From a virus, in IMG/VR virus record IMGVR_UViG_3300025120_000756, positions 1-20,110 of that record: a stretch of DNA of 20,110 nt; one strand, given 5' to 3'. Within the stretch, counting starts at the first letter, position 1. Each line of letters starts with the position of its first letter. Below, in pieces: positions 564 through 18,399 of this stretch. A program made the translations under genes and the position numbers. The notes under the pieces are model-generated. The model saw only the letters and a program-made list of their open reading frames with translations. It was not told the DNA's origin and did not search any database.

Positions 564-756
564 ACTTAATAAAATTCATATCATAAATGAGAAGGCTTGG
601 ACTTTGACCAAGGGTCAAATGAACGTGCTTCAGGTTGCAATGGATCACATGGTTGAACACATGGAAGATGTTGTGAAAGAACTTCCTGAAGTTGATGAAT
701 ACAAAAAGCGTTTGTATGAAGCCCGATCAATAAGAAATATGGTGCAACCTTGGTGA
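556..756 (+). CDS. Small helical hypothetical protein (66 aa)
   Basis: The start is the ATG at 556, five bases after a GGAGG at 546-550 and overlapping the upstream stop by 8 nt. The product (MSELNKIHIINEKAWTLTKG...) has a long amphipathic stretch (VLQVAMDHMVEHMEDVVKEL) and is probably alpha-helical. No signal peptide, membrane segment or catalytic motif is visible. Its TGA (754-756) overlaps the GTG start of the methyltransferase gene, suggesting coupled translation. Function unknown. Confidence 0.7.
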   Translation: MSELNKIHIINEKAWTLTKGQMNVLQVAMDHMVEHMEDVVKELPEVDEYKKRLYEARSIRNMVQPW

Positions 757-1805
757 CGCATAAATCTATAGGCGGACAGAAATGGGCATACTATAATGAG
801 ATTGACCCATACGCCGCAGAATGGCTCAGATCGTTAATTCGGTCTGGGCATATAGCGAATGGTATAGTGGACGAGAGGAGCATATCAGATGTCCGACCAG
901 ATGAACTTCAAGAATTTACTCAATGTCATTTCTTCGCCGGAATTGGGGTCTGGAGTTACGCACTCCGATCAGCCGGATGGGAAGATGACCGACCGGTCTG
1001 GACAGGATCTTGTCCGTGCCAACCTTTCAGCAACGCTGGTAGCAGAAAAGGGATTACTGACGAGCGGCACCTCTGGCCTCACTGGTTCCACCTCATCGAA
1101 CAGTGTAGACCTTCAACGGTCTTTGGAGAACAAGTTGCGTCAAAAGACGGACTTGGTTGGATCGACCTTGTACAAGCTGACATGGAAGGAGAGGACTACG
1201 CCATCGGGTCATTCGATCTCTGCTCTGCGGGCTTCGGCGCACCGCACATCAGGCAAAGACTTTGGTTCGTGGCCGACACCGACAACGCGAGATCACAAGG
1301 GCGGATATCAGGGCGGACGGATTCGAAATGGCAAGATAAGCACGGACACGTTGGATGTAACGGCTCAACTATCGGGATGGGCAACGCCGACAACAGCGGA
1401 TCACAAGGGGGCGGCAAAGCCAGAGTCGGTCAAGAACTGGAACAGTCGGGGGCACAATTTACCAGAACAAGGGCAGATGTCGGGATGGGCGACCCCGACA
1501 TCGATGACGGGCGGAACGAACATAGCACCGTCACATCTGAACGGGAAGCACGGTTGGAACACGGGAGCGCAAGCGCAACTGGCGGTATGGACCAAGGACG
1601 GAGCGGCAAGACTAACGGTCACTGGTCAGATGCTGACTGGCTCCGATGCAGAGATGGAAAGTGGAGGCCAGTTGAACCCGACACATTCCCGTTGGCTCAT
1701 GGGGCTACCGCAAGAGTGGGACGATTGCGCGCCTACGGCAACGCCATCACGGCGCAAGTCGCGCAAGGGTTAATTGAAAGTTACATGGAGGTAAAAGATG
1801 GGTAA
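753..1805 (+). CDS. C5-cytosine DNA methyltransferase (Dcm/M.HhaI-type, phage)
   Basis: This enzyme would transfer a methyl group from S-adenosylmethionine to carbon 5 of cytosine in a specific DNA site, probably protecting phage DNA from host restriction. The motifs appear in the expected order: AdoMet-binding FFAGIGVW (about residues 60-67), catalytic CPCQPF with the nucleophilic Cys near residue 89, FGEQV (about 124-128, in place of the usual ENV), IRQRLWF (about 166-172), a long variable region (about 175-300) that should contain the target-recognition domain, and a closing [11 protein letters not shown] (about 326-336). Length is about 350 aa, normal for a small C5-MTase. Start: GTG at 753 overlaps the upstream TGA; TTG at 750 is also possible. 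The gene is visibly richer in G+C than its neighbours, which suggests acquisition as a module. A second ORF is overprinted in the +1 frame. No cognate restriction endonuclease is seen, so it is an orphan here. Confidence 0.93.
889..1773 (+). CDS. Overprinted protein inside the methyltransferase gene (294 aa, +1 frame)
   Basis: This ORF lies wholly within the methyltransferase gene, shifted by one frame. Two things argue that it is real. Its ATG at 889 has a good ribosome-binding site (GAGAGGAG, about 873-880). Its sequence also matches a pattern I recognise from phage and prophage hypothetical proteins found at cytosine methyltransferase loci: [17 protein letters not shown] (about 91-107), [11 protein letters not shown] (about 111-121), repeated W(P/A)TPT motifs with DHKG (about 128-138 and 164-174, degenerate at 200-204), and C-terminal [16 protein letters not shown] (about 262-277) followed by [13 protein letters not shown]. 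It has no signal peptide or membrane segment. Its role is unknown; a link to methylation or target recognition is only a guess from location. The alternative is that it is a passive open frame created by the methyltransferase codon pattern. Confidence 0.6.
1270..1620 (+). repeat. Degenerate ~108-nt repeat inside the methyltransferase variable region
   Basis: Similar stretches begin at 1270, 1378 and 1486, exactly 108 nt apart, with a weaker fourth copy at 1588 (102 nt on). Each begins with TGG followed by an ACNCCGAC-like core; the first two continue to GATCACAAGG. In the overprinted frame they read W(P/A)TPT..DHKG; in the methyltransferase frame they read [20 protein letters not shown] and [10 protein letters not shown]. 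Units 2-4 are preceded by similar words (CAACTATCGGGA, CAGATGTCGGGA, CAACTGGCGGTA). A period of 36 codons keeps both reading frames intact. Confidence 0.6.
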
Positions 1806-3761: not shown

Positions 3762-4068
3762 ATTTCGGCAGGTTATATTTTTTTATAATATTCCGAACAA
3801 AAGTTTCGGTTGAAAACATCATATCTGCAATTTTTGGTATATTCATATTTCTACTTAGAAAGCTATTAACCATCTTTGCATTTTTAGATAGATTTTTAGA
3901 CTCATCTTCTTTATCAGACCAAGTTTTTACTTTGATTTGTCCCCGAAGGTGAGGTTTTTCTGATACATCTAATCTATTTTGAGCGCACCAGGCTTTATTA
4001 TATAGCTCTTCGTATCTTATTCGAGCCGATTCGCTTTCGTATATTTTGCCTTTTACTTGTGCTTTCAT
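3760..4068 (-). CDS. Small protein with C-terminal helix-turn-helix (102 aa)
   Basis: The ATG at 4068 is preceded on the - strand by GGAGG (4079-4075) with six bases between them. A GTG three bases upstream is too close to that site. The N-terminal part is charged and helical. The C-terminus (IPKIADMMFSTETFVRNIIK followed by KYNLPK) fits a short homeodomain-like helix-turn-helix: 'I..IA..m..s...VR.IikKY'. It is the last gene of the replication block and overlaps the primase-helicase stop by one base. A DNA-binding regulatory role is inferred. The protein is otherwise unrecognised. Confidence 0.65.
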   Translation of the reverse strand: MKAQVKGKIYESESARIRYEELYNKAWCAQNRLDVSEKPHLRGQIKVKTWSDKEDESKNLSKNAKMVNSFLSRNMNIPKIADMMFSTETFVRNIIKKYNLPK

Positions 4069-6251
4069 CACTCACCTCCATGAATTATATTTTGTTCTTG
4101 ATGATACAATTCACCACCCATGACCCCGATAAATTGTTTTTTCCCTTTGTCGGATCTTCTATAAGCGCCTAGCCTGCCATCTTGTAGTAAAGCTGTAACA
4201 GCATTTTTAATTGTAGTTCTTCCATCATCTCTTAGATTAATAGCATTAATATCTGTAGATGGTGCGTTTTGAACTGATGCCCAAACACCATCAATATTAC
4301 CGTCTTTTGTCATGTAATTGCCTGCTTGCTCTTGAAGATCTATAAAGTTGAATAGATATTCTATTCTATTTCTAACAATTTCAGAACCAATAATGCTTCT
4401 AATATCTTCACTTCTATCTTCTAAAAGCCCGTTGTTTGGATTACGAATAAAATGCCTTATGTCTCGATTAGCAACACCGTTTGATTTTACAACAGCACCA
4501 TCGAACACAGCGTTTCTTGTATAGGCAACCCCAATATTTTTGCATCTCGTCCTGGCTACGCCCTCATCGACTTGCCAAACAGCAAAAGCTGACCGGACTC
4601 CATCCACAATAGCTGAAGTTCCTCGAATAAGATTACGAGCTTCTTCTGGCGTTGTGACCGGATCTTTATCTCTAATCTTAGCCATGTGGTGATTAACCAT
4701 TACTGTAGCCCCTGTTTCTGTAGCAATTTGAGCAAGTAAACCCATGAAGGCCGCGCCTGCAGCAGGATCTGCATTTACATCTGCATGAACAAAAGATGCC
4801 ATAGGATCAATAATGACCAACGCCAGATCTTCAATTTCAAGCATTTCTTCGTAGATCTTTTCAAACTCTGGAGATGTGACGTAGGTATTGTCGGCCTTCA
4901 TCATAATTGGAAACACTCCACCTTCGTTTGGTAAAGGCACAATTAATAGATCATGCTTGTAGTTTAAACGATTATTCATTTTATCGAGTCGGCTAACTCT
5001 TCGATGTAATTCATCTCTATCATCTTCAGCCGATAGTATTATTGCTGATCCATGATGAGCGACTAAACCCCCAAAAGAATTTTGCATAGCTTGCCCAGAG
5101 GCCACTTTCATAGCCAGATCTAATGTCATCATACCTTTACCGCTATCTCCTGCAGCGGCAAAAACACATGGTATTCCTAAAGGTATAGTGTCTCCAATTA
5201 GAAACTTTTGTTCTGGTGGGGCTCCTGCGAATTGCTCTCCAATTAACAGACTTTTATTTTTGAGAGATAATGTCTTTTTTATTTTATGATTTGGTGCGTT
5301 AAGAAACTTAGATATGTCGAAGTTTTCTTCGATTGCATCAGCGGCATCCCATTTTTTTGGTTTACCTCGCGGTGGTGTAAGCATCGTAACGGCTTTTGCA
5401 CCTGCATTGACACCAAGCTCTTGTATGATCCTAGCTAATTTTTGCCCTGCTTCATCGTTATCAGGCCATATAATAAGTTCTTTTCCGTGCAATGGAGAAA
5501 AATCAAACTTATCTTTTGTGCGCTGAGATAGCATCCCTGCGCCCCCGATAGTACAAGTTGCTGTATGCCCAAGCTTAATTAGTTCATCGGCACACTTTTC
5601 GCCTTCTACCCATATAACTCGATCAGCTTCTTTAATTTGTGGTAAATTATATAGCGGTCTTGTTTCTGGTAATTTAGGAAATTGACGAAACTCTTTCTTT
5701 GCACTGCCGTCATTATCCCGAACGATTTCACCAGTTTGATCCCGTTCGATGTATTTTCTAACGGCAACGATGACTTCACCATCTTCTGACAGATATAAAT
5801 ACTCTCCATCATGTGGTGTTGAGTAGTCTATGACCTTTTTTTGCTTAACTTGTTCGGGTTGTGGCTCCTGTTGCCTGGGCTTTATTGGGTTCATAGGCGG
5901 TTCAATTTTTGGTTTTTCCAACCATGTAACAAAATGTTCAGCTACATCTTTAATTTTCCAACTGTATGCCGCCATCAGGATTTTAGTTATTCCCCCAATG
6001 CCATCGCCTGTATTAAAATCCATACCGCGCATAAACTCTGGGCTCGATGGATCTATATTTATCTTGAGAGATTGACCGGCTTCGCCGTTTAAAGAACCTA
6101 AATAAAATTCATTCCGAACAACTTTTCCGTTTGGATAAGCGTTTTTTAAAGCCTCTACTTGCACATAAGACGGAACTTTATCCGTTATCTCTGCGACTAA
6201 ATCTCTTGGTTCACTACCATATCTTGTGTTGCCAATTACCCTTAATGACAT
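4068..6251 (-). CDS. Toprim primase / RepA-like helicase fusion (727 aa)
   Basis: This is the probable replicative primase-helicase. The Toprim domain shows VIWVEGEKCADEL with Glu about 216 and the metal-binding triplet in IIWPDNDEAG (about 260-269), as in DnaG/T7 gp4 type primases. After a linker comes an AAA_25/RepA-like ATPase: Walker A AAAGDSGKGM (about 365-374), Walker B LALVIIDPMASF (about 476-487) and VMVNHHMAK (about 517-525), typical of RecA-fold hexameric helicases. No N-terminal Cys zinc finger is visible, so template recognition may differ from T7 gp4. The C-terminus (about 640-727) looks like a winged-helix-type accessory region. The ATG at 6251 has an AAGGA site. It would unwind DNA and lay down RNA primers at the phage fork. 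No DNA polymerase is in this window. Confidence 0.85.
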   Translation of the reverse strand: MSLRVIGNTRYGSEPRDLVAEITDKVPSYVQVEALKNAYPNGKVVRNEFYLGSLNGEAGQSLKINIDPSSPEFMRGMDFNTGDGIGGITKILMAAYSWKIKDVAEHFVTWLEKPKIEPPMNPIKPRQQEPQPEQVKQKKVIDYSTPHDGEYLYLSEDGEVIVAVRKYIERDQTGEIVRDNDGSAKKEFRQFPKLPETRPLYNLPQIKEADRVIWVEGEKCADELIKLGHTATCTIGGAGMLSQRTKDKFDFSPLHGKELIIWPDNDEAGQKLARIIQELGVNAGAKAVTMLTPPRGKPKKWDAADAIEENFDISKFLNAPNHKIKKTLSLKNKSLLIGEQFAGAPPEQKFLIGDTIPLGIPCVFAAAGDSGKGMMTLDLAMKVASGQAMQNSFGGLVAHHGSAIILSAEDDRDELHRRVSRLDKMNNRLNYKHDLLIVPLPNEGGVFPIMMKADNTYVTSPEFEKIYEEMLEIEDLALVIIDPMASFVHADVNADPAAGAAFMGLLAQIATETGATVMVNHHMAKIRDKDPVTTPEEARNLIRGTSAIVDGVRSAFAVWQVDEGVARTRCKNIGVAYTRNAVFDGAVVKSNGVANRDIRHFIRNPNNGLLEDRSEDIRSIIGSEIVRNRIEYLFNFIDLQEQAGNYMTKDGNIDGVWASVQNAPSTDINAINLRDDGRTTIKNAVTALLQDGRLGAYRRSDKGKKQFIGVMGGELYHQEQNIIHGGE

Positions 6252-6283
6252 TATATTGTCCTTATATACCTATTTACCTCTTC

Positions 6284-6317
6284 GGGGGGTAGATCATAGT
6301 CCTTTTGCCTATCCCCC
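6284..6317 (-). other. G-run/C-run stem-loop between nuclease and primase-helicase genes
   Basis: Within the 73-nt gap, GGGGGGTAG (6284-6292, + strand) pairs with CTATCCCCC (6309-6317), with one mismatch, around a 16-nt loop. The - strand transcript would carry the stem between the nuclease stop and the primase-helicase start. No T-run follows on the - strand, so it is not a terminator for that operon. It may influence mRNA processing or translation. Confidence 0.45.
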
Positions 6318-6324
6318 GCTTTTT

Positions 6325-7107
6325 CTAATTATTCCAACAAGTCTCCCTAAACTCGCAAAACTTACAAAGATAAAAATCTTTTGTTTGAGCTATGCGAGGT
6401 AGAATGTCACCTGCTTTTGCCGCAGTCAAGATATTTACAGCCTTGTCACTTGCCGACTGTGCCAACTGACGATCGAACGGCACTAACTCGTAGTAAATCT
6501 CAGATGTGTTTTTGTTTACCACCGTAAAGAGTGCAGGATGATCTGTGAGCTCCATATACGCTTGATATAAGGCTATCTGAGTAGCATAAACAGGATTTGC
6601 CTTGGCTACCCCCATACGTTGAAAGCCTTTCCACTTCTGATCTTTTGCTGACTTGTTTTCCCACAAACATGGATATCCCATATCTACGTCACCGTCACAG
6701 ACCACACCATCAATGTGTCCTTTGATTTCGTCATCAGCTATAGAAAAGCCAAACTGTTTTCCCATCTTATCCTCTGTTCGCAGATCGAACCCTGCATCCC
6801 GCAACCACATTGCAGCGTAATCTTCGATGTAGTGACCGAACTCAAATATCCTTAGTGTTCTTGCACTAAAGCCTGATCCTTTATCAGTTGGATAATTTAG
6901 ATACCGATACTGTATTTTTCTACTACACTCATCGCCTATGCTTGAAGCTCCCAAGTATTTTCTTCGTTCGCGTTTGCTATTCTTTTCTACGATAGCTTTG
7001 TCTACTGCTTGCGAGATTGCCTCTACTTGTGGATTAGAAGGGGATGCTTGTAGAAGGCCAAGTGCCTGTTGACTTATAGTATTTGTCTTCGAGCGTTCCA
7101 ATTTCAA
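6325..7107 (-). CDS. Cas4/RecB-like PD-(D/E)XK exonuclease with Fe-S cysteines (260 aa)
   Basis: The nuclease core shows GHYIED (His about 91), GHIDGVV (Asp about 133), and ENKS (Glu about 150, Lys about 152), then Q..LYQAY (about 177-184). This is the RecB/Cas4 order of catalytic residues. One cysteine (about 61) before the core and three after it (CKFCEFRETCW, about 248-258) match the four-cysteine iron-sulphur cluster of Cas4/AddB-type nucleases. The expected activity is exonucleolytic processing of DNA ends for recombination. Start is uncertain: no ATG precedes the domain. TTG at 7107 is the longest; TTG at 7101 lies eight bases after a GAGGA and fits better. Either way it overlaps the 72-aa gene by about 70 nt. 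CRISPR genes are absent, so this is a replication-recombination enzyme, not an adaptation factor. Confidence 0.82.
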   Translation of the reverse strand: MKLERSKTNTISQQALGLLQASPSNPQVEAISQAVDKAIVEKNSKRERRKYLGASSIGDECSRKIQYRYLNYPTDKGSGFSARTLRIFEFGHYIEDYAAMWLRDAGFDLRTEDKMGKQFGFSIADDEIKGHIDGVVCDGDVDMGYPCLWENKSAKDQKWKGFQRMGVAKANPVYATQIALYQAYMELTDHPALFTVVNKNTSEIYYELVPFDRQLAQSASDKAVNILTAAKAGDILPRIAQTKDFYLCKFCEFRETCWNN

Positions 7108-7252
7108 ATTCCTCTGTTAGTTTTGATGCTTCCTGCAAAGCAAATATTAATACATGAACCTGATCTTCTGAGAGATCAGAGAATTTGGTATCCCAACCAA
7201 ATATTCCTAATATAAATGCCAACTCTTTTATTGGCTTTGGTTCGTCACTCAT
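7034..7252 (-). CDS. Small hypothetical protein (72 aa)
   Basis: The ATG at 7252 follows AAGGAG with seven bases between and overlaps the stop of the 47-aa gene (ATGA). The product begins MSDEPKPIKELAFILGIFGW and is probably helical (LSEDQVHVLIFALQEASKLTEEFE), with a polar Ser/Thr-rich tail. The last 70 or so bases overlap the start of the Cas4-like nuclease gene in another frame. No family is recognised. Its position between helicase and nuclease suggests a small accessory replication protein, but this is an inference from position only. Confidence 0.6.
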   Translation of the reverse strand: MSDEPKPIKELAFILGIFGWDTKFSDLSEDQVHVLIFALQEASKLTEEFEIGTLEDKYYKSTGTWPSTSIPF

Positions 7253-7392
7253 TTTTTTCTCCTTAAATATAAAGCAATGTCAGATAATAAATATGGAAAT
7301 TCATCTGGGTGTATCTCAGCTATAAGCTTTCCATTATACCAAATTTTAAGGCCATCATCATATACTGCCCATCGAGTCTTTACGTCTTTCAT
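7249..7392 (-). CDS. Tiny protein with RWAVYDDGLKIWYNGKLIAE core (47 aa)
   Basis: An ATG at 7392, overlapping the helicase TGA, follows GGAGG (7403-7399) with six bases between and opens 47 codons to TGA at 7251-7249. The peptide (core RWAVYDDGLKIWYNGKLIAE, then IHPDEFPYLLSDIALYLRRK) is compact, with two or three short strands followed by a helix. I associate this pattern with tiny unnamed proteins of phage replication regions. Coupling to both neighbours by ATGA overlaps strongly supports it as a real gene. Function unknown. Confidence 0.7.
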   Translation of the reverse strand: MKDVKTRWAVYDDGLKIWYNGKLIAEIHPDEFPYLLSDIALYLRRKK

Positions 7393-9056
7393 AGATACCT
7401 CCTAACTGCTTGTTCGATTACGAACTTATTCCATAAGAAACTAAGCATACAAGCCGCCCTGTACTTCGTCCAAGAGAAATCAAACGCCTCAATATTTATC
7501 CCTTGAGTAGCCAGGTGTGCTCTCTGTTTATCCGTTAATCGTTGATCTAGCCATCTTTTTGTCTTTTTAGCGGCATTGCCGTCTTCAATCTCTCGTAAGA
7601 AATCATCTGCAGCCGCCGTGCATTGTACGCCACCGCCAACTGCAAGAACCTTCAACTGCCCCCCTCTTCCTGTTACTTTTCCAAATGCAACACTTCCTTT
7701 TGAATTAGTCGCTACTCCAACAAATCCTTCAAAGCCCATAGCCATACGCAGGCTTTTATCTCCAAACATATCCATCCATCTAAATGGAGACATTTGCATA
7801 AGATCAAACTCTGTCATCTCAAACGTGTGAAGTTCTTCTTTTTCTTCTTTCTCACCGCTATCAAAGATGTGTTCACAGATAGGGCAGATCTTCGAGCCCA
7901 TAGGAACAACGGCTTCGCACTCTGGGCATTGTTTAAGCGGTGCTTCACCTTTTTCTTTATCATCTAAGCTAACTGAATCTTCCAACGATCCATGTGTCAG
8001 TACACTTGTTCCAAAATCTAAAACAATACAGTCTCTTTTAACCAGATCAGGGAACTCTTCTGGATCTATCGTTCGCAAACCTCGACCAATCATCTGTACC
8101 ATTGTAGCTTTCTGAGAGCATGGCCTGGTTAGAATGATGCACGACACTGGTGGAGCGTCAAACCCCTCTGTAAGAACAGATACATTTACCACAACATCAA
8201 CATCATCGTAAGCCAGATCATGAAGTATTTGAGCCCTATCTGCCTTTGGTGTTTCTCCTGTGACTAGTTTTGCGTTGATGTCTTGATCTGTGAACTCCTC
8301 CAACAGATCTTCTGCGTGTTTGATTGTGCTACAGAATACAACAGTTTTTCTGCCCTCTGCATGATTAAGATACTCTTCAACCACCCTTTGATTAATGACC
8401 TTGCGGTTCATAATGGATTCGACTTGCTCCATGTTGAAGTCGTTACCGCTAATAGCCACGTTTCTCAGACTATCGTTTACACCGCAATCAATCACATATG
8501 ACTTTGGCGGTACAAGAAAACCCTCTCGAATAAGTGTTGTAATATCTATTTGATGCGAACAGTTATTGAATACTTTTCGCAATCCTTTTCCATCGCCTCT
8601 GTTGGGCGTAGCAGTAAAACCTACAATCTCTGCATCTGGATTGTCTTCTTTAACTGCATTAATAACTTTTAAATATGTATCGGCTGCCGCATGATGACTT
8701 TCATCAATAACAATCATATCAAATGCAGGTCGATCTTTGAGATTGTTATCCCTGGATATTGTTTGCACCATAGAAAATATGGTACCGCCTTTCCAATCTT
8801 TGACTGTGCCGTTTACAATGCTTGTTGTGATGTATGGATTAATACGCTCGAACTTGGATTTGTTTTGATCTACAAGTTCATCTCTGTGTTGCATAACAAG
8901 AACTTTCTTACCGTCCTCGTATCTTTTGCCTACAAGAGCAGACAGCATAATTGTTTTACCGGCCCCTGTGGGCGCAACAACGATTGTATTTTTGTGCTTA
9001 TCTAATGCTTTGCAAGCATCACTGATAGCGGCCTCTTGATAGGGGCGCAATAACAT
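7389..9056 (-). CDS. SF2 DEAD/DEAH-type helicase with C-terminal zinc ribbon (555 aa)
   Basis: This is an ATP-driven DNA helicase or translocase of the ResIII/RecQ-like superfamily 2. Motifs run in order: LLRPYQEAAI Q-like start (about 2-11), Walker A APTGAGKT (about 28-35), DESHH (about 118-122), FTATP (about 147-151), VNVSVLTEGFDAP (about 290-302) and QMIGRGLR (about 321-328). After the helicase core is a four-cysteine zinc ribbon, CPEC...CPIC (about 377-394), then an acidic linker and a C-terminal domain of about 150 residues that I do not recognise. I chose ATG 9056 because the longer GTG start at 9068 lacks a ribosome-binding site. It sits in the replication operon between the ssDNA-binding protein and the Cas4-like nuclease, suggesting recombination-dependent replication, possibly a RecB/UvsW-like role. 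Confidence 0.88.
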   Translation of the reverse strand: MLLRPYQEAAISDACKALDKHKNTIVVAPTGAGKTIMLSALVGKRYEDGKKVLVMQHRDELVDQNKSKFERINPYITTSIVNGTVKDWKGGTIFSMVQTISRDNNLKDRPAFDMIVIDESHHAAADTYLKVINAVKEDNPDAEIVGFTATPNRGDGKGLRKVFNNCSHQIDITTLIREGFLVPPKSYVIDCGVNDSLRNVAISGNDFNMEQVESIMNRKVINQRVVEEYLNHAEGRKTVVFCSTIKHAEDLLEEFTDQDINAKLVTGETPKADRAQILHDLAYDDVDVVVNVSVLTEGFDAPPVSCIILTRPCSQKATMVQMIGRGLRTIDPEEFPDLVKRDCIVLDFGTSVLTHGSLEDSVSLDDKEKGEAPLKQCPECEAVVPMGSKICPICEHIFDSGEKEEKEELHTFEMTEFDLMQMSPFRWMDMFGDKSLRMAMGFEGFVGVATNSKGSVAFGKVTGRGGQLKVLAVGGGVQCTAAADDFLREIEDGNAAKKTKRWLDQRLTDKQRAHLATQGINIEAFDFSWTKYRAACMLSFLWNKFVIEQAVRRYL

Positions 9057-9085
9057 ATCCGAATCCACTTCTTAGTCTAGATGGT

Positions 9086-9151
9086 GGGGGGTATTGGCCC
9101 ACGCCCCCCCGTGCGTGGTCTAGCAGGTGTGGAAAAACCTGTGCCGCTAGA
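9086..9151 (-). other. Structured GC-rich intergenic segment with competing hairpins
   Basis: The 95-nt gap between the ssDNA-binding protein gene and the helicase gene holds several overlapping inverted repeats (+ strand positions). GGGGGG (9086-9091) can pair with CCCCCC within 9104-9110. CCACGC (9099-9104) can pair with GCGTGG (9113-9118). These two pairings share bases and exclude each other. A third stem, TCTAGC (9119-9124) / GCTAGA (9146-9151), encloses AGGT/ACCT (9125-9128 / 9137-9140). There is no T-run after any stem on the - strand. It may control helicase expression by attenuation or RNA processing. Confidence 0.5.
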
Positions 9152-9757
9152 TTACTTATTAGCCCAACTAGGAATTGCACCGGATGTTGGTTGCGCTGTC
9201 TGTTGCGGTTGAGCCGCAGGAGCTTGCGCCATTGGTGCTTGTCCAGAAGGGATAAAATCTTTCTGGTTCGGTGTTACTGCCGCCATGAGTTTATTCTTGT
9301 CCTCATAACCGCCTGTGCCTTTTTCAATTCCAACTTTAGCGCAAATTTCCATTCCACTCAAGTCATTAACGCCACCAATGTTTCGCCTTTGAACCGCAGT
9401 ATCTGACATATCAGATGGATCAATACTATTTGCGCTCTCTATAATTGACCTAAGAGTGGACAAACCAATCTCTTTTGCCACTGGAATACCGCTTGCACCC
9501 ATCTTATCACCGTCTAGAAAAATACGATGCCAGAATTTACGTTTGTCATATTCACCGCCAACAACTGTGAACTCTAGTTCCATCCATTTGGCATTGGATG
9601 TTTGAGATTTTTTAAACCACATTCCGTTACCAAACTCTGAAATTTCAATATCACCCATTTTGACTACAATGATTGCACGACACACTGTTCCGTTTGGAAT
9701 AAGTGTGCGTGTTTGTGTTGGTGCCTCTGACACCGGAGCATTATTAAGATTTAACAT
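9152..9757 (-). CDS. Putative phage ssDNA-binding protein (DUF669-like, 201 aa)
   Basis: The protein begins MLNLNNAPVSEAPTQTRTLI and has a strand-rich core with the phrase 'ELEFTVVGGEYDKRKFWHRI' (about 60-80), typical of DUF669-type phage proteins that act as single-strand DNA-binding proteins. After GGYEDKNKLMAAV comes a Pro/Gln/Ala-rich flexible tail (about 170-200) ending in PSWANK, like the disordered tail of SSB proteins although without the acidic tip. It lies directly downstream of the Sak4-like ATPase gene (one base between) with an AGAAGGGA site, as expected for a recombinase and its SSB partner. The identification is by pattern and context, not by a unique catalytic motif. Confidence 0.65.
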   Translation of the reverse strand: MLNLNNAPVSEAPTQTRTLIPNGTVCRAIIVVKMGDIEISEFGNGMWFKKSQTSNAKWMELEFTVVGGEYDKRKFWHRIFLDGDKMGASGIPVAKEIGLSTLRSIIESANSIDPSDMSDTAVQRRNIGGVNDLSGMEICAKVGIEKGTGGYEDKNKLMAAVTPNQKDFIPSGQAPMAQAPAAQPQQTAQPTSGAIPSWANK

Positions 9758-9758
9758 T

Positions 9759-10616
9759 TTATGTCCCTTCTGTTAAAATCTGTTGATTGGGGTCTACAAA
9801 GTTTAATTGTTTCTCTGTGTTTCCCCCTTTACCCATTTTCTCAATAAGTTTACCAAGATTTGGCTCTTCAAGTGTATCGAGCCTACCAGAGCGATCCTTT
9901 GCAGGATATCCCCATTCATTTAAGGCATCGCAAACAAAAGCACGATACGATCCATTTTCTCCCCCCAAGACCGTCATCGTAATCATTTCGTCCACGATGC
10001 CTGGTAATTCTTTGCCGGTTTTGGAACCTTCGATCTGAAGCGCATATTGTTTGCGCCCATAATCGTCAGTGTATTCGTCCAGAATACCAACAAAGATTAC
10101 GTTCTTATCACGAATATGTTGAAGGTGTGTAAGCCACGCCATCATTTCGCGTCCGTGCATACCATAGGCCGCACGAGTATCTAGCTTGCCAGTTCTATCT
10201 GATCTAGACTCTGGCTGTTGCTGACACCATTGAAAGCACAAACGCCCCGCGACTGTAATTGAGTCAATAAACAGCGTTTCATACTTATTTACATTTTGCT
10301 CTGGATCACCGTACACTTGGCAAACACCTTCATAGTGCGCCTGACTATAACACTGATCCTCATGCAGTGAAGGATTACCGCCACCAAGATAGCAAGCAAA
10401 GTCACGACATTCTGCCCACGTTTGCGGACGAATGACATCAATTGGATGCCCCTCAATAGCGGCATCCCCTGCTTCTAAATCCATAAATAAAGTTTTTGAT
10501 GGATCAAGAGTTTTTACTAATGTTGTTTTACCAACACCACTAGCACCACAGACTACGATCTTATGACCGCGCTTTTCTGCAAGCCGTTGTTCGGCTGTAA
10601 TAATTTGTAAACCCAT
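9759..10616 (-). CDS. Sak4-like RecA-fold ATPase (AAA_24, 285 aa)
   Basis: The N-terminus carries a Walker A motif CGASGVGKTT (about 23-32) and a later Walker B strand YETLFIDSI (about 112-120) with Asp about 118. Between them is LFMDLEAGDAAI (about 43-54), seen in phage AAA_24 proteins. This size and layout match Sak4-type single-strand annealing ATPases used in phage recombination, which work with an SSB partner such as the adjacent gene product. Several cysteines lie at about 70-105 but not in a recognisable zinc motif. Start ATG at 10616 with a GAAGAGGA site; the upstream gene's stop is immediately adjacent (TAAATG). It might instead be a more general phage nucleotide-binding protein. Confidence 0.78.
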   Translation of the reverse strand: MGLQIITAEQRLAEKRGHKIVVCGASGVGKTTLVKTLDPSKTLFMDLEAGDAAIEGHPIDVIRPQTWAECRDFACYLGGGNPSLHEDQCYSQAHYEGVCQVYGDPEQNVNKYETLFIDSITVAGRLCFQWCQQQPESRSDRTGKLDTRAAYGMHGREMMAWLTHLQHIRDKNVIFVGILDEYTDDYGRKQYALQIEGSKTGKELPGIVDEMITMTVLGGENGSYRAFVCDALNEWGYPAKDRSGRLDTLEEPNLGKLIEKMGKGGNTEKQLNFVDPNQQILTEGT

Positions 10617-11012
10617 TTATTTATCCTCTTCTATTGAAAAGCCACCAACCTCTACCGTGCGGCAAGGCTCTAACATTACTTTTATTGCTGGTGGTGCTGT
10701 TGTATATTTTCGTTCTTCAACTGACAGTACGATCTTACCGTAGTGACAGGCATCATCTGGAGGCATACGATTTAATGAATCATTGAGTTCTTTTTGATCC
10801 CAAGTCACTTTTTTACGAACTGTAGCCTTTAACCTTTTATTTCCAGACACAAGTGTAGTCGTTCCAAAATCTTTACCATTCGCTCGTAAAGCGTCACGAG
10901 TCTGTTCTAACCATGTATCTTGGATTTTTTCGTTTATATCTGAGAGCTCTTTTTTATGCCCATCGATAATATCGCGCAATTCCTCTCTGCGCTCGAGTAA
11001 TTGATTGCTCAT
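10617..11012 (-). CDS. Conserved phage protein with coiled-coil N-terminus (131 aa)
   Basis: The ATG at 11012 follows GGAGG with six bases between; the GTG at 11024 lies upstream of that site and is rejected. Residues 1-45 are a charged helix (LLERREELRDIIDGHKKELS). The second half has KKVTWDQKELNDSLNRMP (about 67-84) and SVEERKYTTAPPAIKVMLEP (about 97-116), then CRTVEVGG. I recognise this 'KKV.WDQ...VsERKY...p.aI...lEp.rTV..G' layout from small phage proteins next to Sak4-like ATPases and SSB genes. It has no known enzymatic role. Its place as the gene just before the Sak4-like gene suggests a recombination accessory factor. Confidence 0.7.
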   Translation of the reverse strand: MSNQLLERREELRDIIDGHKKELSDINEKIQDTWLEQTRDALRANGKDFGTTTLVSGNKRLKATVRKKVTWDQKELNDSLNRMPPDDACHYGKIVLSVEERKYTTAPPAIKVMLEPCRTVEVGGFSIEEDK

Positions 11013-11070
11013 AGCAACCTCCACGTTTAATTTTCTAGAACCTTACATGTCGCAAAATATTTTATGTTAG
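11013..11070 (-). other. Gap between DUF1064-like and coiled-coil protein genes
   Basis: This 58-bp AT-rich gap contains the GGAGG ribosome-binding site of the 131-aa gene near its left end. A TTGACT lies across the stop of the DUF1064-like gene on the - strand, but no convincing -10 box follows at the right distance. I see no ORF or strong hairpin. An internal promoter for the recombination genes is possible but unsupported. Confidence 0.3.
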
Positions 11071-11445
11071 TCAAGAATTTTTTTTGGATAGATATATTTC
11101 AATACCAAAAACAGCCTTCATTAACTTCTTTTTTAGTTTAAATTCAGGAGTTTCTACGCCTTTAGCATCTTCGACAATATGTTCCCATATACCATCTGCG
11201 CTCTCTTTATTGTATTTAAAATCGGCTACATACGCACAGATCTTTTGATCGTTTACCAGGATGTTATAGCGTGGTTGGAGCTCTAAATCTTTTATTCTAC
11301 CGGCTTTTTCGAGGGATTTTAAATACAAATAACGTTCTGATTCCCACTTCGAATCGAATGTAATTCCATGTACGGTGGTTTTTTTGTTGCCGTACTTTGA
11401 TCTTGACCTTTTAAGGTTGGGATTATATCGTGGTTTTAGGTACAT
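11071..11445 (-). CDS. DUF1064-like PD-(D/E)XK nuclease, possible junction resolvase (124 aa)
   Basis: The sequence fits the DUF1064 phage family: an N-terminal SKYGNKKTTVHGITFDSKWE (about 16-35), YLYLKSLEKAGRIKDLELQP (about 39-58), YVADFKY (about 73-79) and EHIVEDAKGVETPEFKLKKK (about 88-107). The Asp in ADF, then the Glu/Asp and Lys in EDAKG, make the D...(D/E)xK nuclease signature, and the family is related to phage endonucleases of the restriction-enzyme fold. A Holliday junction or branched DNA nuclease role is plausible but unproven. It is the first gene of the replication block. Its ATG at 11445 has no ribosome-binding site; TATAAC lies only 7 bases upstream, so translation may be leaderless. 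Confidence 0.72.
   Translation of the reverse strand: MYLKPRYNPNLKRSRSKYGNKKTTVHGITFDSKWESERYLYLKSLEKAGRIKDLELQPRYNILVNDQKICAYVADFKYNKESADGIWEHIVEDAKGVETPEFKLKKKLMKAVFGIEIYLSKKNS
11403..11431 (+). promoter_or_regulatory. Candidate promoter with operator-like palindrome upstream of the RHH gene
   Basis: TTGACC (11403-11408, five of six matches) and TATCGT (11426-11431, four of six) are spaced by exactly 17 bases on the + strand. Transcription would start near 11438, ahead of GGGAG (11449-11453) and the GTG start at 11462. ACCTT / AAGGT (11406-11410 / 11413-11417) form an interrupted palindrome that overlaps the -35 box, a natural place for an autorepressor. The element lies inside the oppositely oriented DUF1064-like coding region. 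Confidence 0.45.
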
Positions 11446-11461
11446 TTTGGGAGTTATACTA

Positions 11462-11668
11462 GTGTCTAAGAGTTCTTACATAAAGTCAGTAGGTGTTAGC
11501 ACAGATACTTATGAGAAGATAGTTGAAATATCGAGGAAAGAACGCAGAAGTTTAAAAGAGCAAGTTGGCCTAATTATTGATGATGCTTACAAAAAACAAG
11601 GATTTGCATCAAGTCATCAACCGATAAGATCTGTCTCCGGTGGACTAAGCGCTGTTATAGAAGACTAA
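11462..11668 (+). CDS. Putative ribbon-helix-helix regulator (68 aa)
   Basis: The likely start is the GTG at 11462, eight bases after GGGAG; a longer in-frame ORF from 11375 lacks a site and reads through the opposite gene. The product starts with a basic segment and a predicted strand (SYIKSVGVSTDTYEKIVEIS), then two helices (KIVEISRKERRSLKEQVGLI, then IDDAYKKQ). This is the strand-helix-helix shape of Arc/CopG-type repressors: 'v.v...ty..i...a...r.slk.qv..ii..a'. The tail after residue 47 is polar and unrecognised. It would act as a dimer binding DNA. It is the only + strand gene between 3760 and the window end and ends in a 4-nt convergent overlap with the 1021-aa gene. Confidence 0.65.
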   Translation: MSKSSYIKSVGVSTDTYEKIVEISRKERRSLKEQVGLIIDDAYKKQGFASSHQPIRSVSGGLSAVIED

Positions 11669-14600
11669 AGTAACCCTGCACTTCCTAAACCGCCAAGCAA
11701 TGTGGAGGCAATATAAGGGTTTTTTCGTGCGCGATCTCTAAGTTCTTTATTAACATTAGAGCGAAGAATATCAATTACACCAACAGGAGCAGTCGGACCT
11801 TCTTTTGAGATAGTTTTAGGTATTGATATTTGAGGCATTTCAGGTTGTTGAACATTTGGAACACTTGTTCGGTTTCCTTGTTCCTGTCTAAACATAGCAC
11901 GAGGAAGTACGTTTTTTGCTACACGACTACTTTGCCCATAAGTAGAACCTATCCCACGAGCAATTCCACCAGCCCTACCAGCCATCTGTCCTACGTTTAT
12001 ACCTTCTTCCATTGCAGCTTGGTTCATTATATCCATTACGCCTTGAGCGCGACCTTCTGGGTTATTTATAGTAGCTCGCCTCATTGCTATGTAAGCCTTT
12101 ACAGATTCTGGCTTGTTAAAAATACTTACGATTGCTCTAAATTTAGCTAGTCTTCCTAGCACATTAAGCGGATGTGAAAATATTCGAGAAAACAATCCTG
12201 AAGCAGCAATAGAACCTTCTTTAGCTGCATCTCCACCAATAACAGCTAAATCATCTGCAAAATCTTTTAATGCTTTAAAAGTTTGTTGACCTTCTTCGTC
12301 CAAAATTTGTTTTAAAGAACCCGGTTTGTATTTGCTTAAAGTTTCTTGTAAAGACCTTGCTTTTGCAGCAGATGTAAATACATCTTCGTCAACTACACTT
12401 AGCATGTCTTGAAGAACAACATTCTTCATGTTTTGTTTCATTTGAGGGTTGTAGTCAAAAAACTTCATAATTTGACGCGTTTCGCTTTCAGTCAAATTAG
12501 GTTTTGTTAAAGCCTTAACAACGTCATCATAACTCGCAGATTTGTTTGGGTTGCTTAGGTCTTTAATAACACTTGTTTTCAGAGCCTCTGTTTGCTCCTT
12601 GTTTGCTTTAACAACATTTTCTAAGGAAACTATAAGATCGGAAGAACCTCCTGCATCAAACACTCTTTGCACATCGTTTGCATTTAAAGTATTTTTTATA
12701 CTTGTTTGCTCCATAACCTTTGCAAGTTTTTTAACTTCGCCCCACTCCTTGCCAAATAATTTAGGTCCAGTAGTTCCAAGTTTCATAATACTTTTTGCAA
12801 ATGCTTTACCGTTAAACGCTTCAGGATTTATTGGATCAAGTGCAGAATCCTTTATAGCCATACTAAAGAAACGGCCTCCAAGTTCGTCCAATAATTCGTT
12901 TGGGTTATCAACTGCACTTATTACAGCCTGAAGGCGTTCAGGAGAATCTGGTTTAATAACTTTAGAAAAAAAGCCATCTGATATTGCTTGCGGACCTGCA
13001 TCACCAAAGGCTTTTAAGTCTTGTATAGACCGTATAACACCAATGTTTGATAAATCTTCAAACCTACTAATGCCTTTTCTGTAATTATCATTAGCAGTTT
13101 TTCGTAAATCTGCGGCTTTTGCTAATATTTTTCTTGTGTTTTTAGGAAGTTCTAATCCTGTAGGAAGAACTAAGCGATTAATAATATCATCGCTGTCTAA
13201 CATATTATCAAGCAAACCTTTAAGACTATTTAGTTGTTTTGTTCCTTGAGTTCCAGCACCGAACATTAAACTGTCATTAACGTGCTTTCTAAGAGAAACA
13301 AGGTTTCTAAAACTAGCTCTTCCACCCGCATCTGTTAGTTCTTTTAACGAGTTATATGCAAGACCAACGGAACCTTCTAAGAGAGATGTCCCATGATCTT
13401 CAATCATGTCATTAAATTTACTCATAAGACCACTAGTGTTAAATAATTTTAACTTACCGCCTTCTTTGAGAACCTGAACACCGTCTATAGTTACTGGAAC
13501 TTGTATTTGCGCCAAAGCATCGTCTATAGCACCATAAGCACTCCGCGATACATCATCAAAAGCATTGAATGATTGAACTATATTGCCAAGAATTTTTGCG
13601 TTTAAATCTAAATTTTCATCTACAGAAGTATATAGCATTTTCATGCCAGTATCTATGGCGTTAAAAGTTTCTGAGTGAGCTTTTTTTATGTTTGAATTTA
13701 ATTTTGAAAATTTAGAAGGAGCGTACCACATTACGTCTTCAGCTAAACCCTCTACAGGATCACCTTTTATAGCATTAGTAAAGGTTTTCTTTTCTTCCAA
13801 AGCTACTGCTAGGTTGTTGTCCATTCTTGCTGTATTTTTTGTTGCGTTTTCTCCAAAAAGCTGAGTGTAAGCTAAAGGTTCTGGAGCATTAAGAGAACGC
13901 AAAGATTGAACATAACCTTTACCAACTAATCTTTCGCCTTGGTCTAATTGTTTTAAAGTCACTTCATCCATTGCGCTAAGAGAGCCGCCTGCACGACCAG
14001 CAAGTGATTTGCCAGCGCGTCCTAATCCACGCACCCCTGATGCTACTATAGCGCCAGCAACTTCACCACCAGCACCAATAACAGCTTCTATAGCTACATC
14101 TTTAGTCACATCACCAAGACTTTGAGTTTGTACTCCAAGCAATGTCTCAATGGCTTCCTCTAATGCTTGACCACCAGCCGCACCAGCGGCTGCGCCACCA
14201 ATCGAACCAATTCCAAAAGTTAAACCACCACCAAGAATAGCCCCACCAATAGAACCTATGGTTTCAGGTAAGATACCAGCGAAGTCAGAAAAATCACGCA
14301 TACTAAAACCTTCATCTTCGATAATGAGGTTTTTGCCAATTGGCTCTATGCCACGGGCTTTTTGTCCTGCTTCAGTTAAGGCAAGTCGTCCAGATGGATC
14401 ACGCACATATCCATCTTCTCCAACAGTCTTTTTTAAGATTGCTTCACGATCACCTTCAGTTTCACCAAAGGACATTAAAGCGCGAAGTTTACCGTCTGCA
14501 CCTGATTCATAGTCAAACATATCACGGTCTTTGTTAGTTCTTTTATCAGCAACTTGTGTTAAACTTTCACCTGAATTTAAACCAGAAAAAGCTAAAGACG

Positions 14601-14730
14601 CCATTAGGTCTGACACTTCATTAGTTTCTTTATTTTGTTTAATTGCTTGTAGAGCCTCAAAGCTCTGTCTTTCATTTAACAAACCTGATTTTAAACCTTG
14701 AAGAAGATTATATTTTGTTCTGTCATCCAT
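11665..14730 (-). CDS. Large virion protein, probable DNA-ejection/internal protein (1021 aa)
   Basis: This very long, mostly helical protein has two glycine/alanine-rich hydrophobic stretches (about 157-187, with GSIGGAILGGGLTFGIGSIG, and about 213-235) that could insert into a membrane. The remainder is charged helices with repeated Asn/Leu/Lys patterns. The C-terminus is again Gly-rich and hydrophobic (IASTLLGGLGSAGLL). It has no lytic transglycosylase motif that I can see. Size, hydrophobic Gly-zipper-like segments and its place as the last of a rising size series (324, 622, 1021) resemble podoviral internal core/ejection proteins, such as T7 gp14-gp15-gp16. That role is an inference. Start ATG at 14730 overlaps the upstream stop by one base (TAATG). 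Confidence 0.6.
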   Translation of the reverse strand: MDDRTKYNLLQGLKSGLLNERQSFEALQAIKQNKETNEVSDLMASLAFSGLNSGESLTQVADKRTNKDRDMFDYESGADGKLRALMSFGETEGDREAILKKTVGEDGYVRDPSGRLALTEAGQKARGIEPIGKNLIIEDEGFSMRDFSDFAGILPETIGSIGGAILGGGLTFGIGSIGGAAAGAAGGQALEEAIETLLGVQTQSLGDVTKDVAIEAVIGAGGEVAGAIVASGVRGLGRAGKSLAGRAGGSLSAMDEVTLKQLDQGERLVGKGYVQSLRSLNAPEPLAYTQLFGENATKNTARMDNNLAVALEEKKTFTNAIKGDPVEGLAEDVMWYAPSKFSKLNSNIKKAHSETFNAIDTGMKMLYTSVDENLDLNAKILGNIVQSFNAFDDVSRSAYGAIDDALAQIQVPVTIDGVQVLKEGGKLKLFNTSGLMSKFNDMIEDHGTSLLEGSVGLAYNSLKELTDAGGRASFRNLVSLRKHVNDSLMFGAGTQGTKQLNSLKGLLDNMLDSDDIINRLVLPTGLELPKNTRKILAKAADLRKTANDNYRKGISRFEDLSNIGVIRSIQDLKAFGDAGPQAISDGFFSKVIKPDSPERLQAVISAVDNPNELLDELGGRFFSMAIKDSALDPINPEAFNGKAFAKSIMKLGTTGPKLFGKEWGEVKKLAKVMEQTSIKNTLNANDVQRVFDAGGSSDLIVSLENVVKANKEQTEALKTSVIKDLSNPNKSASYDDVVKALTKPNLTESETRQIMKFFDYNPQMKQNMKNVVLQDMLSVVDEDVFTSAAKARSLQETLSKYKPGSLKQILDEEGQQTFKALKDFADDLAVIGGDAAKEGSIAASGLFSRIFSHPLNVLGRLAKFRAIVSIFNKPESVKAYIAMRRATINNPEGRAQGVMDIMNQAAMEEGINVGQMAGRAGGIARGIGSTYGQSSRVAKNVLPRAMFRQEQGNRTSVPNVQQPEMPQISIPKTISKEGPTAPVGVIDILRSNVNKELRDRARKNPYIASTLLGGLGSAGLL

Positions 14731-16598
14731 TATTTAACGACTCCAAGTGTTTTTAAGTCAGCGTTCATAGACTTTCTTTCAGCGTCTGTAAGCTCACCAT
14801 CTCCAAAATAACTAGAAATTTGTTTTCCTGAAACTTGATCAAGATTTGTTAATCCTTCAAGGATTTTATTTTCCTCTCCCGTAACAACATCATTGTATAG
14901 TTTTGCAATTTTGAATTCTATTAAGTCTGGATTTGAAAATAATGTTTTATCCCCAACAATTGATTTTACAAGTTGACGCTCAAAGTCAGATGTATTTTTG
15001 CCGCCTTCACCTAATATATTACTTGCTTGTTTTGCTTGTAATTCTGTCAAAATAGCTTTCATTTTTTCGTTTGGATTAGCACCTTCTGAAACATTAACTC
15101 CAAATGCACTTGCCGCACTGTCTACAGTGTCTAGTAAGGTGCTAAATACGTTTACAGCACCCTCATCTGACATTGTTTGAAGGTTTATAAATTTTTCTTT
15201 ATTTGTTTGATTTGTTTTAAATCTTTTTTGAAGCGCCCTGTACGCAGAATCAATTTGAGGATCACTAGCCCCAACAACTTGTCCCCTTTTAGCTTTATTT
15301 GGAAGGCCGTAAAAAACATCAATCTTGTACATAGGATCATCATCCTCAGTTATAAGAGACATTGGCCTTGGGGTTGTGTCGAAATATTCTTTAGCCTCTG
15401 GTGTTTTCATAGCCTCTGATATAACAGAACTCCAAACTGATCCGGGTAGTGCTTCAAACTGATTAGAAAAATCAGGATTTTTCATAAGTTTGTCTAATTC
15501 ATATTTACTTAAAGATTGTCTTTTACCTTTTCCTTCTGCTAAATTAGCCAGTAAACCTTTATAATTATCTGATTTTGGAACAATAAAATAATCAGTACGT
15601 TCCATAGCTTTTTCTTTAGCCGCTTGTGATTTAGCCTGATCAGCAGACCTCATCTCCAAGGCAAACTTGCCAGCCGCTATCGCATCATTTCTGGCTTGTG
15701 TTTTGGCTTTCTCTAACGCAGGCATGGCGGCTTCTCCTGCTTTTCCAAACTCGCTAAATAGACGGCCTACATTAAAACCTTTACCTGCTCTATTTTGCAT
15801 CATAGCAAGTCCAAGAGACATTAAAGCCGAACTTTTGTCTACTTTACCGCTTATATCTATACCGGTAGCTTCAGCAAACTCTCGTTTGTATTCTGCTAAG
15901 TCCTTAGTTCTTTTTTCGGGGCCAACACCTCTAGCATTTGTAATATAGTCTTCCATAGATTGCTCAAAAAGTTTTTCTAAAGGTGTGTTTTTTGATGCAT
16001 TAGAAGCAGCTTCTTCTAACGCCTTACCTCCTACTTCTGGTTTTCCTTGAGCTTCAGCTATCTTTTCTTCTTGCTTTCTAAACTCATTTGCTCTTTTTTC
16101 TCTTTCATTTTCTGCCACCCCAAGTTGAGCTAATGCTTCATCACTAGCGCCCATTAACCCCATTGTTGATTTTGTTGGTGGCTTTTCTCCAGGCTTTAAA
16201 TTTTTTAATATTTCTGCATTTGCCTCATCAAAAATATCAGTATCAAAAGGAACAAAATCATCTGGTGTTTTACCGATTAATTTTCCGTCTTTATCAAATT
16301 TAGCGCCTGTTAAATCAGGTTTAAATCCACCCGCATCGGCAACTTTTTTAGTGGCTTCTTGTACATTTTTAGGAACAACGTAAGGTGAAAAAGCTTTATT
16401 TTTTACGGGCATATTCGCCCCGCTCAAACCACCATACATCTGAAGTCTACGAATATTATCCGTTAAAGTTTTAGGATTATCAGGTATAGTAGCTAAAGCC
16501 ATTTGTTTTCTTGTAACAGGCTTATTGTCAAAAAAATTTCTACCTAGTCCATAACTATATAACTGGTTTTCATAATCAGTTAGAGGTTTTTTTGCCAT
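14730..16598 (-). CDS. Virion-associated protein, helical (622 aa)
   Basis: The protein starts MAKKPLTDYENQLYSYGLGR and has a Lys/Glu/Ala-rich helical centre (about 150-340, with KQEEKIAEAQGKPEVGGKAL and AKTQARNDAIAAGKFALEMR) suited to coiled-coil formation. A segment 'DYITNARG...DLAEYKREFAEATG' is followed by 'ALMSLGLAMMQNRAGKGFNV' (about 260-280), phrasing I associate with structural proteins of marine podo-like phages. No enzyme motif is visible. It is co-directional and overlapping with the 1021-aa gene and follows the 324-aa gene after 17 bases. Residues about 227-236 are identical to the active-site loop of the SNase-like protein. Probable internal or tail-associated virion component. 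Confidence 0.6.
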   Translation of the reverse strand: MAKKPLTDYENQLYSYGLGRNFFDNKPVTRKQMALATIPDNPKTLTDNIRRLQMYGGLSGANMPVKNKAFSPYVVPKNVQEATKKVADAGGFKPDLTGAKFDKDGKLIGKTPDDFVPFDTDIFDEANAEILKNLKPGEKPPTKSTMGLMGASDEALAQLGVAENEREKRANEFRKQEEKIAEAQGKPEVGGKALEEAASNASKNTPLEKLFEQSMEDYITNARGVGPEKRTKDLAEYKREFAEATGIDISGKVDKSSALMSLGLAMMQNRAGKGFNVGRLFSEFGKAGEAAMPALEKAKTQARNDAIAAGKFALEMRSADQAKSQAAKEKAMERTDYFIVPKSDNYKGLLANLAEGKGKRQSLSKYELDKLMKNPDFSNQFEALPGSVWSSVISEAMKTPEAKEYFDTTPRPMSLITEDDDPMYKIDVFYGLPNKAKRGQVVGASDPQIDSAYRALQKRFKTNQTNKEKFINLQTMSDEGAVNVFSTLLDTVDSAASAFGVNVSEGANPNEKMKAILTELQAKQASNILGEGGKNTSDFERQLVKSIVGDKTLFSNPDLIEFKIAKLYNDVVTGEENKILEGLTNLDQVSGKQISSYFGDGELTDAERKSMNADLKTLGVVK

Positions 16599-16615
16599 AA
16601 TTGTTCGCCTTATTT

Positions 16616-17590
16616 CTAAGCCCTGTTAATGCCCTGAAGGGTGGTGTATGCTCCAAGTCCAGCCATTGCCGGATTAGTTTGATAAGTAGGTTGCTGTATT
16701 GTGCTATAAAGACCCGCAGAAGGTGTTCCAGATAGCGCACCATATGCATAGTTATATGGCAATAGAGCTTGCTCAGTTAGTCTTTGACCTTCTTGTCTGC
16801 CTGTATCAATTACCTGTTGACGGTAATTTCTTTCAGCCTCTCCTGTGCCTTGCATATACGCTAAATCCGCAGGTGCCATAGCGCCGTACACACGACCAGT
16901 ATCAGCCGCTTGAGTCCCAATAGATCCATAAGATTGACCTATACCACCAACAAGTCTACCGGCCTCTTGTGAGGCTTTTTGAGCCTGTGCATAGTTTTTC
17001 ATTCTTAGATCAGCAGTGGCTTTACGCTTTGCGTCTGCAATATTACGTTCTATTTCTGCTGTTTGTATGCCCTGTCGAGATCCACCAAATGCTCCTGCTT
17101 GTATAGCTTTATCAGCAGCGCGATTCATGGCAACTTGACCTTGGCGGTCAATATCCTTTTCTACTTCATCTATAACTGCTGTTTGATATGGGTTCATATA
17201 GCTTTGAACAGATGTTGGATCTGTAAGAATTGTTTTTGCATCTGCTAAAGAACCCAAACCTTCTGTTAAGCCCGTTTGCGCTTGATTGAAGTATGGATCT
17301 GTGCGCTGCATAAAATCTGGTATTTTATCTCCATCTGCATCTTCCTGAAGATATTGTGAACCAAAAGTCTCAAGTCCAAATCCTGTAATCTGACCTGTTG
17401 TTGGATCTCTGCCGTACTGACCTGCCATTTCATAAGGTGAAATTTTAAAATAATCTGGGTCTTGAATAAGACCACCAGAAAATTCTTTAGTTCCCTCATC
17501 ATATGAGCCGAATATTGCATCTAAGAGTGCTTTTTCCCGTAATTCTAAATACTCTGGGCGGCGGTTTATTGTTGTCATTGGATCAGACAT
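16616..17590 (-). CDS. Virion protein of the YMNPY / AGAFGGSR type (324 aa)
   Basis: The hallmark is SYMNPYQTAVIDEV (about 130-143), then QAGAFGGSRQG (about 164-174), a combination I recognise in structural proteins of marine phages. Between residues 84 and 92 is DADGDKIPD, which fits a calcium-binding D-x-D-G-D-x-I-P-D loop like those in thrombospondin type 3 and dockerin/EF-hand proteins. The second half is helical and Gln/Ala-rich (KATADLRMKNYAQAQKASQE), and the C-terminus is Pro/Tyr-rich (YQTNPAMAGLGAYTTLQG). Start ATG at 17590 with GGAGCG six bases upstream. Probable tail or ejection protein; exact role unknown. Confidence 0.65.
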   Translation of the reverse strand: MSDPMTTINRRPEYLELREKALLDAIFGSYDEGTKEFSGGLIQDPDYFKISPYEMAGQYGRDPTTGQITGFGLETFGSQYLQEDADGDKIPDFMQRTDPYFNQAQTGLTEGLGSLADAKTILTDPTSVQSYMNPYQTAVIDEVEKDIDRQGQVAMNRAADKAIQAGAFGGSRQGIQTAEIERNIADAKRKATADLRMKNYAQAQKASQEAGRLVGGIGQSYGSIGTQAADTGRVYGAMAPADLAYMQGTGEAERNYRQQVIDTGRQEGQRLTEQALLPYNYAYGALSGTPSAGLYSTIQQPTYQTNPAMAGLGAYTTLQGINRA

Positions 17591-17592
17591 AT

Positions 17593-18357: not shown

Positions 18358-18399
18358 TTATCTCTCCAACAAAATATATCTTATTTTAGCACCAATGTA

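Follow-up and report, generated by a model that had tools for sequence, protein, structure and literature searches.

A candidate two-polypeptide C5-cytosine methyltransferase in a phage, with the smaller chain encoded inside the gene of the larger one

To our knowledge, long genes nested on the same strand have rarely been proven in phages or bacteria, and almost never with the functions of both products known. The beta subunit of the methyltransferase M.EcoHK31I, a protein of about 176 aa, is encoded inside the gene of the alpha subunit in another reading frame. M.EcoHK31I and M.AquI are both C5-cytosine methyltransferases (C5-MTases) that consist of two polypeptides (PMC3404938). The alpha chain of M.EcoHK31I includes motifs I–VIII and X as well as the predicted target-recognition region (TRD), and its smaller chain includes only motif IX. 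M.AquI is split within the variable region, part of which remains in alpha, and its smaller chain includes motifs IX–X (PMC3404938).

The window analyzed here is the whole of the virus record IMGVR_UViG_3300025120_000756, a stretch of 20,110 bases. It includes an ORF for a C5-MTase large domain, which we call alpha, and a second ORF, beta, that lies entirely within it in the +1 frame (Table 1). A sequence-only reading of the window had pointed to this nested ORF, with its own ATG and the ribosome-binding site GAGAGGAG, and all three were borne out. Alpha is likely to start at GTG 753 or TTG 750. At 753–756 the sequence GTGA overlaps this GTG with the TGA of an upstream 82-aa ORF, an arrangement that suggests translational coupling of the two. 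The stretch ahead of motif I that carries VDERSISDV is one that we take, from knowledge of the family, to be motifs II/III. The opposite-strand genes in Table 1 were named by PHROG matches; the large minus-strand proteins at 11665–14730 and 16616–17590 matched no family.

Table 1. Features of the nested methyltransferase locus and of the opposite-strand genes, in window coordinates.
Feature	Position	Strand	Evidence
Alpha ORF (C5-MTase large domain)	750..1805	+	PF00145 8e-11, phrog_363 3e-85
Beta ORF, 294 aa, ATG start, +1 frame, entirely within alpha	889..1773	+	phrog_1008 and phrog_31772 matches
Putative Shine-Dalgarno (SD) of beta, GAGAGGAG	873..880	+	
Alpha motifs II/III (presumed; contains VDERSISDV), ahead of motif I	789..893	+	alignment
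Alpha motif I	927..965	+	alignment
Alpha motif IV, GSCPCQPFS with catalytic Cys	1005..1031	+	alignment, M.HhaI match
Alpha motif VI-like, GEQV	1125..1136	+	alignment, M.HhaI match
Alpha motif VIII, RQRLWFV	1251..1271	+	alignment, M.HhaI match
Alpha linker, residues 184–295	1299..1634	+	predicted disorder and neutral evolution; same DNA as beta TRD region
Alpha motif X	1713..1775	+	alignment, conservation profile
Beta helix and beta-hairpin, residues 72–117	1102..1239	+	best-predicted portion of beta
Beta variable TRD-like region, W(P/A)TPT modules, residues 128–240	1270..1608	+	
Beta motif IX, residues 262–277	1672..1719	+	hhalign, scoring matrix, conservation profile
Genes for primase/helicase, Cas4-type exonuclease, DNA helicase, Sak4-like annealing protein, Holliday junction resolvase, endolysin, nuclease	4068..19411	-	PHROG

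In order to compare the two frames, the best 80 matches to alpha in IMG/VR were collected as homologous loci, and they comprise 71 distinct coding sequences. The sequence-only reading had proposed two checks on such homologues, the openness of the +1 frame against codon-shuffled controls and the suppression of synonymous variation in the MTase frame, and both came out in favor of a second gene. Only one +1 stop was found in the 71 distinct homologues (20,325 alternative codons), while 277 are expected from synonymous-codon shuffles. This sole stop, in L067, is the second alternative codon, and another in-frame ATG lies a few codons downstream. Beta was open in none of 300 synonymous shuffles of the window alpha, for which 5.7 stops are expected; in some GC-rich homologues the probability of an open frame after shuffling was 0.1–0.16. 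At 75–95% alpha identity, synonymous codon differences were found in 15% of cases inside the overlap versus 42% in the non-overlapping 5' part.

The start of beta is constrained as well. This was measured on aligned codons rather than on shuffles with the first ATG as start, because in distant clades the aligned start frequently differs from the first ATG. The aligned start is an ATG in 79 of 81 sequences, with AGGAG upstream in 64 of the 81. Wherever the codon that creates the ATG encodes Asp (69 sequences), it is GAT; neighboring Asp columns 5' of the overlap have mixed codons (34/34 and 30/41). Arg876, whose codon lies within the SD, is encoded by AGG in 57 of 71 homologues, versus 12% of the Arg codons elsewhere in the gene. 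An alternative ORF in the +1 frame of the MTase was present in 237 of 237 loci from three homologue searches, each limited to its best 80 matches and so favoring close relatives; one was run on bacterial genomes, and the loci from it are presumably prophages. No stand-alone beta homologue was found among the best 80 hits, again mostly close relatives, of searches with beta as the query, all of which overlapped alpha. On these comparative grounds the 294-codon ORF is a real gene. The openness of the frame, the frame-specific dN/dS (below) and the conserved ATG and SD give strong support to dual coding and to translation of a second protein, in agreement with the earlier claim that both frames look like real proteins.

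The claim that the host frame has all C5-MTase motifs in order was wrong. Alpha does belong to the C5-MTases (PF00145), with the PCQ of motif IV, the AdoMet motif I and motifs VI, VIII and X all present, but the alignment of its homologues gives the order II-III-I-IV-VI-VIII-X and revealed no motif IX-like stretch. Motif VI of C5-MTases is usually ENV. A position of motifs II/III before motif I (window 786–965) is unusual for a C5-MTase; in a second clade, which we call Diva-like, the order is normal. The alpha match to M.HhaI in PDB is confined to profile positions 85–179 and ends after motif VIII. Weak PF00145 matches of the alpha family in 20 bacterial genomes likewise center on motifs IV–VIII, starting at 64–70 and mostly ending at about 160–240, whereas the monomeric MTases of the same genomes cover PF00145 from 1 to 322.

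Searching Pfam and NCBIfam with beta, and PDB with its profile, gave no match. When beta was aligned to monomeric MTases with hhalign, the only match was between its C-terminal stretch and LTPNECRRLMGFPEDF, which is motif IX; taken alone this match is weak (E 0.13). Motif IX was also scored with a matrix derived from only four monomeric MTases, which identified it in 98% of 46 beta proteins at p ≤ 0.01 versus shuffles, and in none of 35 alpha proteins. The hhalign and matrix results therefore place motif IX in the beta frame and motif X in the alpha frame; the assignment of motif IX rests on position, the four-sequence matrix and selection, the profile match being short. In a monomeric C5-MTase the TRD and motif IX lie in the same chain as the other motifs, but here motif IX is absent from alpha and the alpha region equivalent to the TRD is neutral and disordered. 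Beta is most likely a second subunit of the same enzyme, because motif IX and a TRD-like region, absent from alpha, lie in it.

Selection was estimated per frame as dN/dS from 29 disjoint pairs of the window clade and 22 pairs of the Diva-like clade. Intervals are bootstraps over the codons of disjoint pairs, and as homologues within a clade are related they understate phylogenetic dependence. In the window clade, the region 5' of the overlap served as a negative control, with dN/dS of 0.06 in alpha and 1.18 in the +1 frame. Across motifs I/IV–VIII the values were 0.14 for alpha and 0.47 for beta. In the TRD (1260–1620) they were 0.98 [0.87–1.10] and 0.32 [0.28–0.37], in motif IX 0.81 [0.61–1.07] and 0.42 [0.33–0.52], and in motif X 0.11 and 0.40. 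The Diva-like clade gave, for alpha versus beta, 0.72 versus 0.40 in the TRD, 1.03 versus 0.32 in motif IX and 0.16 versus 0.70 in motif X. Alpha is therefore nearly unconstrained exactly in the segment that would be the small domain.

The conservation profile, computed as mean identity per 15 codons, follows the same division. Identity is 0.94 for alpha versus 0.58 for beta at 990–1034 (motifs I and IV), beta lies above alpha across 1260–1620, and at motif IX beta reaches 0.89 versus 0.71 for alpha, with 95% of alpha third positions conserved; at motif X alpha is again higher (0.86 versus 0.63). Selection visibly changes frame where the two domains meet. In the predicted structure of alpha, residues ~10–180 and 335–350 are folded and residues 184–295 disordered (pLDDT ~31–49 per 10-residue block), and with this model Foldseek identified M.HaeIII and M.HhaI in PDB. 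The AlphaFold model of beta is poor (mean pLDDT 45), residues 72–117 being its best part. Dual coding, a selected start site and the frame-by-frame split of motifs and selection are thus established for this locus.

The explanation that we favor, with a probability of roughly 0.87, is that the locus would encode one C5-MTase as two polypeptides, beta being nested in alpha, of the M.EcoHK31I kind. From the evidence above we infer translation of both chains, their association, the TRD function, methylation activity and a protective role, as follows. One mRNA would serve both chains, with beta produced by internal initiation at its own ATG and SD. Alpha would be the AdoMet-binding catalytic large domain, with motifs I–VIII and the motif X helix, and its middle ~110 residues would form a disordered linker, present solely because ribosomes have to translate through the beta coding region to reach motif X. 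Beta would supply the small domain, with motif IX and the target-recognition region. Together the chains would form an active MTase that methylates the phage genome, which would probably protect it against host restriction.

Other readings of the same locus were weighed. Beta may be genuine and overprinted but serve another function, in anti-restriction or regulation for instance, with alpha being a complete MTase alone. This we consider unlikely, though it would suit the N-terminal third of beta, which overlaps motifs IV–VIII and is conserved although it is hard to assign to any part of a canonical small domain. Alpha alone, however, would be without the small domain of the solved C5-MTases, because it has no motif IX and its TRD-equivalent segment is disordered and neutral; motif IX is found in beta instead, and in three relatives motif X joins it there. 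An unrelated accessory gene is disfavored by the motif IX and TRD of beta. The earlier idea that this DNA encodes a modification enzyme and an uncharacterized partner is right with regard to a second coding frame, but the partner is most likely a subunit of the enzyme itself.

Even less probable is a single-chain MTase produced by two programmed frameshifts, to +1 after motif VIII and back before motif X. Such a product would be a collinear MTase, with motifs IV–VIII in frame 0, the TRD and motif IX in +1 and motif X in frame 0 again, but it requires two shifts, and the relatives with an AquI-like layout use two ORFs. It is unlikely because the beta start is constrained and the first 120 codons of beta, its N-terminal third included, are under purifying selection in the +1 frame (0.47) although they would be superfluous in a frameshifted protein. 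We regard it as hardly credible that the +1 ORF merely results from codon or residue bias in the MTase frame. Composition can give rise to a single overlapping ORF of such a size, and the openness of shuffled GC-rich homologues agrees with that; the near absence of stops across the homologues, the scarcity of synonymous differences inside the overlap, and an alternative frame that shows no constraint before the overlap and clear purifying selection inside it all argue against it. A chance ORF is refuted by the synonymous shuffles and dN/dS.

A layout like that of the window is also found in phages of a second clade. Paenibacillus phage Diva encodes an MTase with normal motif order, gp49, and gp50, annotated as 'g49 internal gene', in the same +1 frame and ending in LNPDWVECLMGFPIGW. 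The clade collected with gp49 and gp50 as queries has motif IX in +1 and motif X in the alpha frame. Over all collected loci, 274 have motif IX in +1, alpha open through motif IX and motif X in alpha, and a further 20 have motif IX in +1 and alpha open, with motif X not scored; 110 loci were uncallable by the motif patterns used, and some contigs are counted more than once. From these comparisons the nested arrangement appears to be present in hundreds of phages and prophages. Mycobacteriophages gave weak matches that resemble beta and share its frame, for which the evidence is thin.

Natural variants were found among these loci. In L290, L325 and L355 motif X lies in the beta frame, so that beta includes the TRD, IX and X, and alpha is closed soon after motif VIII in an AquI-like layout; it follows that the alpha frame stays open across the beta region only if motif X lies beyond it. 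In L293/L351, L310, L417 and L057 motif IX is in the alpha frame and motif X is out of frame. These look like frameshifted copies and are possibly decayed; L284–L286, which share an assembly number with L293, show the nested layout. The count of W(P/A)TPT modules (window 1270–1608) varies among close relatives (L015, L016, L018, L046 and L059), as though modules for recognition had been gained, lost or shuffled; a tandem repeat search of the gene found none.

Annotation of these loci is uneven. Both ORFs are annotated in phages K1ind1, K1ind3, PhiXhv-18 and Diva, and only alpha in the records of N15 and epsilon15. The beta of Escherichia phage K1ind3 (L245, 1450–2247) is annotated as 'putative Mte8-like protein', a name for which no explaining paper was found in the part of the literature searched. 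Many phage 'DNA methyltransferase' records would thus be half annotated. Each of the two frames appears to specify one part of a single enzyme, the parts complementing each other; cloning of alpha only, or synonymous recoding, would silently destroy it, and target specificity would have to be sought in the nested frame. We think it fairly likely that these loci represent a broad class of C5-MTases, in phages of Proteobacteria, Firmicutes and probably Actinobacteria, that encode catalysis and recognition in two frames, the beta modules being free to diversify where alpha is a disordered linker. If this is true, the TRD of M.EcoHK31I belongs to the beta chain as well, and its assignment to alpha was wrong.

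The families PHROG 363, which matches alpha, and PHROG 1008 and 31772, which match beta, are all named 'DNA methyltransferase', and unlike our description their annotation makes no mention of nested subunits. With the monomeric C5-MTases (M.HhaI, M.HaeIII, Dcm) alpha shares motifs I, IV, VI, VIII and X and the large-domain fold, but in those enzymes the TRD and motif IX are within one chain. In L290, L325 and L355 the division falls, as in M.AquI, after motif VIII and before the TRD, with beta including the TRD, IX and X; in the window, unlike M.AquI, alpha retains motif X and the whole of beta is nested. Judged by its published motif content, the system most like that of the window is M.EcoHK31I: alpha includes motifs I–VIII and X, and the smaller subunit includes motif IX. 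That subunit is also nested in the gene of the larger one, in a different frame. The window system differs in that it is found in a phage, with no restriction endonuclease among the window ORFs examined, in its larger beta (294 aa) and in the alpha of its clade, which has motifs II/III before motif I. The TRD of M.EcoHK31I was predicted in alpha, whereas here selection (alpha 0.98, beta 0.32) and disorder point to beta. We found no description of a nested MTase arrangement in phages in the part of the literature that was searched. The kind of arrangement is known from M.EcoHK31I, and what is new here is its breadth in phages, the evidence for a TRD in beta and the motif-rearranged alpha.
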